Assembly (NCBI GenBank): GCA_023512255.1
Contig: JAILZY010000078.1
Location: 1 to 16,004, forward strand
Direction of reading: 5' to 3'
Length of the DNA stretch: 16,004 bases
From: a bacterium
GTDB taxonomy: Bacteria > SZUA-182 > DTGQ01
Part shown: in pieces, positions 6,500 through 16,004 of the stretch
Position numbering within the stretch: the stretch's first letter is position 1
Layout of the letters: each line of letters opens with the position of its first letter
Position numbers and translations under genes: made by a program
Notes under the pieces: generated by a model
Seen by the model: the letters and a program-made list of their open reading frames with translations, nothing else
Databases searched by the model: none
Told to the model about the DNA's origin: nothing

Positions 6500-6533
6500 C
6501 AGATTCCAAGATCAAGCAGATTTCAAGATCAAG
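6500..6533. repeat. 17-nt tandem duplication in the leader
   Basis: CAGATTCCAAGATCAAG (6500-6516) is followed directly by CAGATTTCAAGATCAAG (6517-6533), one mismatch in 17. It lies in the predicted untranslated leader of the downstream secreted protein gene. Confidence 0.9.
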
Positions 6534-6676: not shown

Positions 6677-7174
6677 ATGGAAAAAGAATTGAAAACCATA
6701 CGGCCAAATATCTTAATCCTTGGTATAATTGGTGTAATATTATTATCCATATTTATACTGCCAACCAGACCGGCAACTGCCCAGATTGTGCCCCCCTATC
6801 CTCCTGTATTTTTCCCCTTTGAAGGCTTTCCGCTCCTGCCGCCTCCTGGGGTCGCCCCGGTCTTTTATGGCTATTTGCCCTACAGCTATCCGGCTACCAG
6901 AAGCGCGTCAGTACTAAGCTCGACAAGTTCTCTGCTTTTGTCGACCCTTCTTACCCCGACCACCACAACCACCGCCACTCCGGTAATTGGAGTCAGCACG
7001 GCTATAACCCTGGCCACCCTGGGAGGATCTGGGCTTTCAACCACCACGCTGGCTACCCTGGCCGCGACCCCGGTTCCTACGACAGTTACTACCACGCCAA
7101 CGATCGGCACAACCACAGCCTTGCTGCTGAGTGGAGGAGTATCAACCTCAACCCTGCTTCTCTTAGGAATATAA
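6677..7174 (+). CDS. Small secreted Thr/Ser/Leu-rich protein of unknown function
   Basis: I do not recognise a family. The 165-aa product has a signal peptide: basic N-terminus, hydrophobic core at about 11-29, and a likely signal peptidase I site after ATA at 33-35. Next comes a Pro/Phe/Tyr-rich segment (37-72, with PPYPPVFFPFEGFPLLPPPG). Residues 75-165 consist almost only of Thr, Ser, Ala, Leu, Val, Gly, Ile and Pro, with runs such as TPTTTTTATP, TLATLGGSGLSTTTLATL and TVTTTPTIGTTTALLL; there is one Arg and no Lys, Asp, Glu, Cys or His there. This suggests a beta-rich, possibly aggregating or surface-coating polymer. AAGGAGG lies 9 nt before the ATG, so translation should be strong. The gene stands alone behind a sigma-54-type promoter and is followed by a terminator-like hairpin. 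Confidence 0.75.
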   Translation: MEKELKTIRPNILILGIIGVILLSIFILPTRPATAQIVPPYPPVFFPFEGFPLLPPPGVAPVFYGYLPYSYPATRSASVLSSTSSLLLSTLLTPTTTTTATPVIGVSTAITLATLGGSGLSTTTLATLAATPVPTTVTTTPTIGTTTALLLSGGVSTSTLLLLGI

Positions 7175-7425: not shown

Positions 7426-8049
7426 TTACTGCCTTATTAAGTCATTAAGTCCCTTCACGAAGGTCTGGAAACTTTTTGAACGGTTCCGCTCAGGGTTCAT
7501 GTGCTGTGAAATAAGATGAGCAGCCTCAATCTTAGGCAGCCCAGTAGGATAATATCCGGCCTTTTTTAAGATGCGCTCGAGTTTTTCCCACGTTCCACCC
7601 CTAATGTTGTCAGGATCTTGACATGGCAATTTATTGGGCACTTTCGGATAGGCTTTATTAATAGCCTCGATATCTCCCAAAAACCAGGCCTCTAATTCTT
7701 CAATGGCTAGGCGGTTCACAATCTGGAAACTACCCTGGCCGCAGCAGGTAGATTTGGTAACAAATTTAGCGCCTGTAGCGATATCTTCTAACTCTCTTTT
7801 TAGCTCCTGACATTCGTCGCGATCTTTATCGATCAATACCACAATCCGATAGTTATCAGGCAGCCATAGACGATACCCTCTCAATCTTCTAGGCAATTTA
7901 GACAAAAGATCTTTTTTGCCATTATGAGGATGGATATCAAAGGTTATCCCCTTGGGAAGTAATTTGGGAAGTAAATTTTTCAGCGCTGCTTCGGCAGATT
8001 GCTCTTCGACCAGAAATTCAACGTGCTCAACAGATATAACCTGCTGCAT
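7426..8049 (-). CDS. DUF4276 Toprim-like protein, partner of the adjacent ATPase
   Basis: The 207-aa product begins with the family signature VEFLVEEQSAEAAL (10-23), which supplies the first Toprim-type glutamates. It then has VVLIDKDRDE (70-79), the DxDxD-like acidic motif (Asp74, 76, 78), and AIEELEAWFLGDIEAI (115-130), a third conserved acidic helix. From family knowledge, DUF4276 proteins resemble the Toprim domains of OLD-type and RloB-like nucleases and often follow an AAA ATPase gene. Here the gene begins 31 bp after the ATPase stop on the same strand, as expected for a two-gene operon. The likely role is the effector nuclease of an ATPase-Toprim module acting in phage or plasmid defence; activity and target are inferred. 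The ribosome-binding site is weak (AGGGCTGAGAGC just before ATG). Confidence 0.8.
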   Translation of the reverse strand: MQQVISVEHVEFLVEEQSAEAALKNLLPKLLPKGITFDIHPHNGKKDLLSKLPRRLRGYRLWLPDNYRIVVLIDKDRDECQELKRELEDIATGAKFVTKSTCCGQGSFQIVNRLAIEELEAWFLGDIEAINKAYPKVPNKLPCQDPDNIRGGTWEKLERILKKAGYYPTGLPKIEAAHLISQHMNPERNRSKSFQTFVKGLNDLIRQ

Positions 8050-8080
8050 AGCTCTCAGCCCTTGCCGTATCAGCCCCTTG

Positions 8081-9427
8081 TCAGCGTGGATGCTTTGATT
8101 TCTTACTTTGATTTTTTAATTGATGTGGGCTAGCCAGATACCCCTTATCCTTGCCGTGTGGGTGCTTTCCACAAACCCTTAAGCTACCTGCCTCAGTCAG
8201 AGGATCGCCAGCATCGAAATGTCCTTCCATCCAAAGATATCCTAATTGCTCTCCAGTATCGACAAATTCTTTTATCCCCTTAATATAAATGGATTGTCGG
8301 GCATTTGTAAATCCTCTCTCATCGCGATAGAGCACCCAGAGTTCTTCAGGACGTAATCCATTTACAAAAAATGGCGAATGGGTAGTAATCAAAAGTTGAG
8401 ATCGGGCCGCGGCGAGTCTGCATTCTTCAGCTAGTTCAGGCAAAAGTCTGGGATGGAGATGATTTTCCGGCTCCTCAATACCAATAAGAGGTGGCGGCTC
8501 TGGATCGTAGAGGAGAGTAAGATAGGCCAACATCTTTAATGTGCCATCTGAGGCAAATTTTGCCAATACCGGCCTCTCAAAAGGAGCGTCCTTGATTTGC
8601 AAAAGAAGCCTGCCATCCTGCATAGGCTCAGCTTCCACACTCTCCAGTCGAGGAACTCTTTGGGAAAGACACTGGATGATCCTATCTAATCGCTCCTTAT
8701 GCTGCTCTCTCAAGTATTGAATAACATTGGGAAGGTTATCTCCGGTCGATGATAGCCGCTCCTGCGGACCTGCTTCAGGGAGAGAACGGGTTGTGTCTGC
8801 GCTTAGATATGAGAGATACCAGCCGGTGATAAACCGGCGGAGAGCACTGACTCTAGGGTGTCTGCTGAATTGTCCTAGAGTATTGACTGCCAAATGTTCA
8901 GAAGAATTTAATTCTTCCTCGATGCGAGCATTCACATTCTGCTCATCGGGGAATTCTCCAGAGATAACAAGGCCCTTGCCCTTTTTAAAATCTAAAAACC
9001 GGAACGGTTTCCCACGCTTGCCTCGTCTCCATGACAGCCATTCCTCAGCCACAAACGGCCCCCTAGGGTTTTCATCAATTGCCAGATGGTAGGTAATAAG
9101 GGGCAGGTCAGGTCTTTCACGATATTTTAATTCAATAACTATCGGCCCATTCTGATCTCGTGTTCGTAATTCTTTAAATCTGCCGCGTTTGTCCCAAGCG
9201 CGGCGAAGGCCATAGGTAAAGCATTCGGAAAGGAAGGCAAAAACATCAAAAATGGTAGATTTGCCGCTTCCATTAGGCCCAAGAAAAACCGTGAGCGGTG
9301 TTATCTTTTTTAACTCAAGGTCACGCAATGCTCGATAATTTTTTACCCGCAGATATTCTATCCTAGGGATAGATTGTTTGCTTGTCTTAAGATCGCCGGC
9401 GTAGGTGTTCATCTGGAGTTTATCCAT
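8081..9427 (-). CDS. AAA/OLD-like ABC-type ATPase paired with DUF4276
   Basis: The 448-aa protein has an N-terminal [18 protein letters not shown] segment (22-39) followed by Walker [10 protein letters not shown] (50-58), a long helical insert, a signature-like [10 protein letters not shown] (291-300), Walker B with catalytic glutamates [13 protein letters not shown] (314-326), and the H-switch [10 protein letters not shown] (345-354). This is the AAA_21/AAA_15 architecture of RecF/SMC-like ATPases that act as sensors with Toprim nucleases in OLD and PARIS-type systems. Proteins of this type, as I recall them, tend to end near the motif [14 protein letters not shown] (397-410). The remaining 38 residues, rich in Lys, His, Ser and Gly, look like an extension made by local duplication: KHPH (421-424) and KHPR (445-448) lie in segments 72 nt apart. 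No clear Shine-Dalgarno precedes the ATG at 9427 or the next ATG at codon 6. Confidence 0.85.
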
Positions 9428-13848: not shown

Positions 13849-13971
13849 GGCCGTCCGATGCCATAGTAATAATCCATAGTAATAGTAGTAAATTTCTTTG
13901 CCTTACGGCTAGTAAGGCGGCTAGTTATAAATTTCTTCTTATGGCCGTCCGATGCCATAGTAGATAAATCC
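13849..13971. repeat. Duplicated 3' end of ugd between ugd and rfaE2
   Basis: GGCCGTCCGATGCCATAGTA occurs at 13849-13868 and again at 13943-13962, offset 94 bp; weaker similarity extends both to about 28 bp. The 13943 copy is the real ugd terminus (codons for YYGIGRP). The other lies downstream of the ugd stop. Between them are more short reiterations: CCATAGTAAT (13861, 13874), TAAATTTCTT (13889, 13928), CGGCTAGT (13906, 13918), and a 6-bp hairpin CCTTAC/GTAAGG (13901-13917). Confidence 0.85.
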
Positions 13972-15255
13972 CCTCTCCCGCATAAGTTTGGGATCATAGA
14001 GGTTTCGGCCATCGAAAATAACCGGGCTGCGCATAAGTTGCTTAATTCGATCAAAGTTAGGACGGCGAAATTCATTCCATTCAGTGACCACAATCAAGGC
14101 ATCGGCCCCTTCAAGGCAATCGTAGTTGCGGGAGCAGAGCTCTATTCTATCCTTGAAAATCTCTCTAGCTCGCCTCATGGCCGCAGGATCATAAGCTCGA
14201 ATACTGGCTCCCTCAGCCAGCAGATGATTGATGATATTCAAAGAGGCTGCCTCCCGCATATCGTCGGTCTGGGATTTAAAGGCTAGGCCCCAGACGGCCA
14301 GAAGCTTTCCCTTGACTCCCTGCTGTTGATCGAATTTTCTAAAATGATCACACACCTTGTGCCCGAGAAGGTCTTTCTGCCGGTTATTGACCTTCTCCAC
14401 AGCTTTCAGAATTTCCATAGAATAGTTGTGCTTTTCCGCAGTCCGAATCATGGCTTTCACATCCTTAGGAAAGCATGATCCACCATAGCCAACTCCTGGG
14501 AAAAGGAAGGAGTGGCCGATTCGGGAATCTGTGCTGATTCCCAGTCGTACCATATCGACATCGGCTCCTACCCGCTCGCACAGGTTGGCCAGCTCATTCA
14601 TAAAGGAAATCCGGGTGGCCAGCATGGCATTGGCGGCATATTTGGTCATTTCTGCAGATCTAATATCCATGACAATAATCGGGTTGCCGGTCCGAACAAA
14701 GGGGGCATAGAGTTCCTTCATGATTTCGGCTACTTTAGGATTATCGCAGCCGATAATGACCCGGTCTGGTTTCATGAAGTCGGCCACAGCCGCGCCCTCC
14801 TTCAAAAATTCAGGATTTGAGACCACATCAAACTCTACCGAGGTCTCCTGGGCTATAGTCTGCCGTACTAGGTCAGCTGTGCCAACTGGTACAGTGCTTT
14901 TATCCACAATTATCTTATAGGAGTCCATAATCTGACCGATAGATTTGGCCACCGCCAAAACATGCTGCAAATCTGCCGATCCATCTTCATCCGGTGGGGT
15001 GCCCACAGCAATGATATTTATTAAGGATTCCTTGACCCCCTCGGCCAGATCGGTAGTAAATCGAAGGCGTCCCTCCCGACCATTTCGCCGCACTAGATCC
15101 TCAAGGCCAGGTTCATAGATAGGGATCTTGCCCTGCTTGAGAATCTCAATCTTTTCCTTATCTATATCTACGCAAATTACATCGCTGCCATTTTCAGCAA
15201 AGCAGGCCCCGGTTACCAGCCCTACATAGCCGGTTCCGATAACACAGATATTCAT
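13939..15255 (-). CDS. ugd: UDP-glucose 6-dehydrogenase
   Basis: Ugd oxidises UDP-glucose to UDP-glucuronate with two NAD+, a precursor for capsule, exopolysaccharide and LPS sugars. The 438-aa protein is full length. The N-terminal Rossmann fold opens [16 protein letters not shown] (1-16, GxGxxG at 7-12) with CVDID (28-32). TVPVGTA (121-127) and NPEFLKEG (147-154) follow; [14 protein letters not shown] (252-265) holds the catalytic Cys261, and [15 protein letters not shown] (322-336) lies in the C-terminal domain. UDP-N-acetylmannosamine dehydrogenases are related, but the FLKEG and YGGSCFPKD forms favour Ugd. Its ATG overlaps the TGA of the upstream small frame (ATGA), and AAGGAG is 9-10 nt before the ATG. 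The gene ends at GIGRP, after which its tail is reiterated in the spacer. Confidence 0.95.
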
Positions 15256-15500
15256 ATCATGGATCTCCTTCCCTGGATTATTCTGATTCTGATACTTTTT
15301 CCCAGCTCAAACCTACACACTTCTGGTCCTGATTTTGGCTCACATAGGCTATGGTGCGAGGGGATAATTCCAGCACCTTCAAGATATCTTTCTATTCTCT
15401 CAAGGCTTTCAAAAATCATCCGAGATTTGTCAATGACTTCACAGCAAATATCTTCCAATTGCTCTGGCAGGCAGACATGGGCTATCTTTTTTGGCGGCAA
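15252..15500 (-). CDS. Small hypothetical ORF coupled to ugd, probably start-damaged
   Basis: No family recognised. From TTG 15500 the frame gives 82 aa with a Glu/Arg/Ile-rich helical middle ([29 protein letters not shown], shown here as residues 13-41) and four to five Cys. Its TGA overlaps the ugd ATG by 4 bp (ATGA), the arrangement of translationally coupled genes. The frame is open further upstream without ATG or GTG to an in-frame TAG at 15579-15581. An ATG at 15548-15550 with GGGG upstream starts the same coding sequence, but a 17-nt tandem duplication (15515-15548) throws it out of frame after six residues into a TAG. Deleting one unit gives a clean 93-aa ORF. It may be a recent pseudogene, or the TTG may be used; it may also be only an open leader carrying the ugd ribosome-binding site. 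Confidence 0.4.
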
Positions 15501-15514
15501 TCTTGCCTCTAGCC

Positions 15515-15548
15515 ATAATTCTATATCATCAATAATTCTATATAATCC
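15515..15548. repeat. 17-nt tandem duplication that breaks the small ORF
   Basis: ATAATTCTATATCATCA (15515-15531) is followed by ATAATTCTATATAATCC (15532-15548), 15 of 17 identical. The period is not a multiple of three and separates the ATG at 15550 from the downstream frame. Confidence 0.85.
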
Positions 15549-15586
15549 ATGAACCCCAGTTCTTACATCACCAAAAGCCTAATCTC

Positions 15587-15620: not shown

Positions 15621-15724
15621 TTCTACTCCTTTAAAGAAGCTTATAAAGAAGCTAAGGCTTAGCTCAGTGCTTTTTTCGACCCATTTTATTGAAAGCTTGG
15701 CTCTTCTTCCCCTGTGCATATCGC

Positions 15725-15753
15725 ATTCTAAAGCCAAAGGAGCCCTTTGTCAA
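15725..15753 (-). promoter_or_regulatory. Near-consensus sigma-70 promoter with dyad in the spacer
   Basis: On the minus strand TTGACA (15748-15753) is separated by exactly 17 nt from TAGAAT (15725-15730). The spacer carries the interrupted palindrome CAAAGG-GCT-CCTTTG (15735-15749), with 6-bp arms and the -35 edge inside it, a natural operator position. Transcription would start near 15719 and run into the small ORF and ugd; the leader to ugd is about 460 nt. Confidence 0.75.
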
Positions 15754-16004
15754 GGAGGAGACAGAGGCCCCCAAGATCCGAAATTAATTTAATCAGAGGG
15801 CTCGTTTTTGTATTTTTTAGGTTTAAAAAATCAATTTCATGATCGATTTTGGTCTGGTTGGTTTGGTTTTTAGTCGGACATCATCTCTTGGATGAAACAG
15901 ATGTTCCCCATATTTAAAATTAGGAGAAGTAGATAAGCCGCAGGGTAAGGGTATTGAGGTAAAAGACAATAGTATCCCCTTTGTCTCCCTGGAGCTATTT
16001 AACC
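15754..16004. other. Upstream flank of the ugd promoter
   Basis: This stretch is AT-rich next to the promoter. Its last 90 bases hold a plus-strand open frame running to the window edge (residues like KGIEVKDNSIPFVSLELFN) without an ATG, GTG or TTG start after the last in-frame stop. A minus-strand frame with no recognisable product is also open there. I see no supportable gene. Confidence 0.4.

Follow-up and report, generated by a model that had tools for sequence, protein, structure and literature searches.

The stretch directly upstream of ugd in the window (the whole 16,004 nt of DNA analyzed, which make up the entire contig C80 of the 172-contig draft genome G000) is very probably a pseudogene, the relic of a HEPN/MNT (HepT/MntA-like) toxin-antitoxin cluster, and a tandem 17-nt duplication inside it would be one decay event among several and no switch. 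We put the probability of this reading at about 0.92. The initial annotation had proposed that the duplication inactivated, or phase-switched, a 93-aa gene coupled to ugd, and that contraction of the repeat would restore it. In place of a switch acting on a polysaccharide-precursor gene, this reading has ordinary toxin-antitoxin decay beside ugd. The homology and synteny of the region with an intact cluster, its lesions and the absence of the partner genes were observed directly.

Among the related genomes searched, a single clear relative was found on contig C35 of G001, which belongs to the same genus, and it also lies directly upstream of ugd. Four HEPN/MNT genes (L025:4590-6192, minus strand) separate a glycosyltransferase-like gene from ugd in that genome. 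The first encodes a HepT-like_2 protein (PF20797) of 198 aa and the second an MNT nucleotidyltransferase of 96 aa; a 149-aa HepT-like protein from the HI0074 branch and another MNT protein, 98 aa long, follow before ugd. The name glycosyltransferase-like is our own reading of the sequence, and an NCBIfam search at 1e-10 gave no match for that gene. The gene for the 149-aa protein (L025:4897-5346, minus strand) served as the reference for alignment of the relic. Its product matches PF08780 (E 9.7e-7) and TIGR01987 (E 4.2e-7), in both cases under the curated cut-off (29.3 versus 31.8 bits for Pfam), and its HepT activity is predicted. Matches by sequence to solved structures (TTHA0048, the Legionella HEPN toxin and HI0074) were all weak. 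An MNT gene with the GSR...GGDID motif was found directly upstream in 51 of the 58 intact relatives of the HepT branch in other genomes, which is the usual order in this HI0074 branch. A pair in the same MNT-HepT order is present in G002 (same family, L031), the MNT proteins being 40% identical. The layout of the G001 cluster suggests two HEPN/MNT pairs, nested or in tandem, and the last MNT protein is possibly the partner of the first HepT.

Frameshift-aware alignment showed that the minus strand of the window from 15695 to 15366 follows residues 47-145 of the 149-aa G001 protein. At the nucleotide level the relic is 72% identical to G001 over 276 bp (blastn, E 6e-41), and in its C-terminal part 41 of 57 amino acids (72%) are the same. 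With a profile built from 55 relatives, G001 left out, the relic frame was the best of all frames in the window (E 1e-5), which places it in the HEPN family. Searched alone against Pfam and NCBIfam, the same frame gave no match at E values up to 1; its family is known because the G001 relative revealed it. The frame reconstructed in the initial annotation thus does have homologues, both in G001 and among the 55 profile members.

The duplication consists of two adjoining 17-nt units at 15515-15531 and 15532-15548, which differ at two of 17 positions and are therefore imperfect. Adjacent 17-mers alike in at least 15 of 17 positions occur four times in the window, and neither 100 Markov simulations of the whole window nor 2000 local ones produced any. 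Chance would not be expected to yield such a pair, and the repeat at 15515-15548 is confirmed. On the minus strand, the ATG at 15550-15548 opens a peptide, MDYIELLMI, that is ended by TAG; in the initial annotation it had been cut slightly short, at MDYIEL. A second minus-strand frame is open from 15578 to a TGA at 15254-15252, forming an ATGA overlap with the ugd start codon at 15255. Removal of one unit leaves 282 of 299 nt, and the earlier reconstruction of 94 codons, including a stop that overlaps ugd, was right in both coordinates and arithmetic.

In the blastn comparison G001 shows an exact 17-nt gap at the duplication, although an alternative gap setting spreads this gap. A related genome with one copy of the 17-mer therefore exists. 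In gene orientation the first copy (15532-15548) breaks the frame after MDYIEL, and the second (15515-15531) is the one collinear with G001 (DDIELW versus DDIGFW). The exact gap against an intact gene indicates that the duplication is real, probably derived, and did break a gene. Relative to G001, the only same-genus genome compared and the one relative from which single-copy ancestry is judged, it is most likely an insertion derived in the lineage of the window, and by this alignment it split a formerly continuous reading frame. The suggestion that a gene was inactivated thus holds as far as the frame is concerned, but that gene was the 149-aa HepT-like one, which carries several other lesions too. 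A 93-aa gene is not supported: its presumed ATG corresponds to an internal codon (at about Ile90) of the longer one.

The relic has lost its N-terminal third, residues 1-46. A +1 frameshift at 15578-15581 (minus strand) corresponds to the position of residue 80. Just upstream of the ATG at 15550-15548 an in-frame TAA (15566-15564; LLVM, stop, ELGFMDYIEL) stands where G001 encodes Q85 and 53 of 55 relatives encode E; the frameshift-aware dynamic-programming alignment scored this site as a -1 frameshift, and the frame is broken there either way. A second tandem duplication, with 12-nt units alike at 11 of 12 positions (approximately 15636-15659, minus strand), adds four residues relative to G001. 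The RX4HXY motif, which comprises the RNase residues and the tyrosine adenylylated by MntA (PMC7641770, PMC11586414), is degenerate in the window (15494-15471): R is replaced by P (15494-15492), N by K and Y by C (15473-15471), and only H remains. None of the 55 relatives varies at R, N, H or Y, which is partly built in, as the pattern used to collect them included the motif. With R and Y lost, the relic does not have the RX4HXY signature of the toxins.

Both MNT antitoxin genes of the G001 cluster and its other toxin-like gene are absent from the window, and no MNT antitoxin with a GSX10DXD motif adjoins the relic. When the whole of its own genome was searched with the complete G001 cluster, only the relic and a 34-bp segment at 15723-15756 (minus strand) were returned. 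This segment is 88% identical to G001, where its counterpart lies just downstream of the glycosyltransferase-like gene, and it represents what is left of the DNA flanking the cluster upstream. One other PF08780/MNT pair, of an unrelated branch, is present on contig C36 of G000. The locus thus combines an intact homologue elsewhere with several local lesions, as a pseudogene does. Since the frameshift, the TAA, the truncation, the motif changes and the loss of partners are independent, contraction by one unit would not restore a working gene: the frameshift and the stop codon would persist, and residues 1-46 and the motif R and Y would still be missing. An on/off switch is very unlikely for this reason.

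The neighboring ugd (13939-15255, minus strand) is intact and 90% identical to G001 in amino acid sequence. Its product is a nucleotide sugar dehydrogenase of the UDP-glucose 6-dehydrogenase type (TIGR03026, E 2e-139), consistent with its earlier naming. Between ugd and the relic, the alignment to G001 ends at 15366, and the frame continues as a non-homologous tail (15252-15365, minus strand) into the start of ugd. In G001 this position is occupied by the MNT antitoxin gene and a spacer; the tail has no match to G001 in the compared stretch until about 30 bp before ugd. The ATGA overlap sits in this tail and looks accidental, and the coupling to ugd that had been read from it is not upheld. 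An AAGGAG-type site before ugd is common to the window and G001. Fusion of the relic to ugd, or its use as a leader peptide, was also considered and rejected, since nothing in G001 corresponds to the tail. On the other side, the contig ends in a multi-copy repeat (15898-16004) with seven further copies, 94-99% identical and mostly at contig ends, which is probably an insertion-sequence end where the contig breaks. Its continuation in L019 holds an ORF resembling a transposase tail; a family search with this partial ORF gave no match.

Differences from G001 at first, second and third codon positions number 6, 10 and 20 in the C-terminal part of the relic (20 of 36 at third positions), versus 29, 19 and 187 in ugd (187 of 235). 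The dN/dS ratio is about 0.15-0.4 for the relic (three methods, 57 codons) versus 0.04 for ugd. This pattern would fit long constraint followed by relaxation. Given 108 open codons and 72% identity, weak residual constraint and very recent decay cannot be told apart. One may ask on these grounds whether the remaining frame of 82-108 codons is still translated into a HEPN fragment that lacks catalytic activity but has acquired a new role, for example in partner binding or in translational coupling to ugd. The open frame of 108 codons and the dN/dS values over 57 codons would agree with this, as would a possible TTG start at 15500 with AGAGG at a suitable distance before it. However, the N-terminal part of the helical bundle and the motif residues are gone, no partner gene is left at the locus, the C-terminal third is without an equivalent in G001, and the ribosome-binding-type site before ugd is the same in both species. 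We consider such a peptide improbable.

It is less probable still that the duplication and the other lesions are metagenome assembly errors. The genome is indeed a draft of 172 contigs and the contig of the window ends in a repeat, but two substitutions separate the 17-nt copies, several different types of lesion occur, and the neighboring genes are intact. Least likely of all, and very nearly dismissed, is a phase-variable switch in which gain or loss of a 17-nt unit would turn a small ugd-coupled gene off or on: the insertion is exactly one unit, it shifts the frame, and the ATGA overlap is there, but only two copies exist and they are imperfect (15/17), the tail is non-homologous, the proposed start lies inside the longer gene as an internal codon, partner genes and residues of the motif have gone, similar duplications are scattered through the noncoding DNA of the genome, and no copy number gives an intact gene, as the frameshift at 15578-15581, the TAA at 15566-15564 and the loss of residues 1-46 do not depend on the 17-mer.

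Under the preferred reading of a decayed toxin-antitoxin cluster, the ancestor of the genus would have carried a HEPN/MNT cluster between a glycosyltransferase-like gene and ugd. In the lineage of the window, deletions would then have taken the two antitoxin genes and the other toxin-like gene, together with the N-terminal third of the gene of the relic. The remainder would have gained the frameshift, the stop codon, the 12-nt and 17-nt tandem duplications and the changes of motif residues, the 17-nt duplication neither switching anything nor controlling ugd. The ancestral state of the intact cluster, this order of events and a lack of expression are what we infer.

The window contains four two-copy arrays of period 17, and two-copy duplications are found at 1572-1608, 1631-1668, 6500-6533 and 15515-15548. 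Further ones were seen in samples L095-L102, L107-L126 and L167-L186 of the same genome. A survey covered 626 kb sampled from the 172 contigs of G000, together with samples from G001-G003. Two-copy gapless arrays of 10-40 nt, at least 85% alike, were counted after removal of repeat families; noncoding DNA was defined crudely from ORFs and the assemblies are drafts. In G000, 133 arrays were present in about 108 kb of noncoding DNA (1.23 per kb), versus 0.35 per kb in G001, 0.22 in G002, 0.10 in G003 (a small sample) and 0.15 in 60 loci of other species. Short duplications of 10-30 nt are 3.5 times denser in noncoding DNA of G000 than in G001 and about eight times denser than in the mixed set. 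Markov-2 simulations gave 0-2 arrays in total, and the excess of G000 over G001 has P of about 2e-9. In coding DNA most arrays have lengths divisible by three, as selection would require. The excess in noncoding DNA makes the 17-nt event typical of the noncoding DNA of this genome, where hundreds of other duplications are like it. It is possible, though we hold this tentatively, that the event is one of about a thousand two-copy duplications of 10-30 nt (extrapolated from the 626-kb sample) arising from a mutational process particular to this lineage, which would be less active in the nearest relatives and would not involve Ku-type end joining. Ku (PF02735) was searched for in G000-G004 and was absent from all five, so that it was rejected as the cause. 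A literature search for short tandem duplications within intergenic regions of bacteria returned nothing relevant. If the excess over the genus mate holds in the full genome and in same-species relatives, it would offer a tractable case for how such duplications arise.

G000 also contains two families of interspersed repeats that have tandem units inside them. One has a 14-nt unit, TTATATTTTCAACA (e.g. L098:37-65, L110:34-62 and L117:34-62), and lies about 35 bp from many contig ends; the other has a 23-nt unit (e.g. L176:1654-1697). A seeming period of three in the lengths of noncoding arrays (excess at 11, 14, 17, 20 and 23) was mostly due to these two families and faded after duplicates were removed. 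Elsewhere in the window, adjacent genes for an AAA_21 ATPase (448 aa) and a DUF4276 protein (207 aa) form a two-gene, defence-like pair (7426-9427, minus strand); the best NCBIfam match of the ATPase is MAD3 of a methylation-associated defence system, far under the cut-off. A 165-aa protein (6677-7174, plus strand) has a signal-like start and a long low-complexity body rich in Thr, Ser, Leu and Ala, and a family search with it gave no match.

Contingency loci are phase-variable genes with frame-shifting tandem repeats. Like them, the window carries, in what was once a reading frame, a tandem repeat whose unit length is not divisible by three; unlike them, it has two imperfect copies, other inactivating lesions and no intact product after contraction. 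The closest systems are type VII HepT/MntA pairs of the HI0074/NTase_sub_bind (PF08780) branch, namely SO_3166/SO_3165 of Shewanella oneidensis (PMC7641770) and the pair of Legionella pneumophila (PMC11586414). The intact G001 relative resembles these in its RX4HXY motif (RNKIAHVY), its similar length and its adjacent MNT genes, and, among solved structures, it weakly matches the Legionella HEPN toxin and HI0074. The copy in the window differs from them as a broken fragment with neither the motif R and Y nor an MNT partner. With ordinary bacterial pseudogenes the relic shares truncation, a frameshift, a nonsense codon, short duplications and relaxed substitutions, and in nothing essential does it differ from them.
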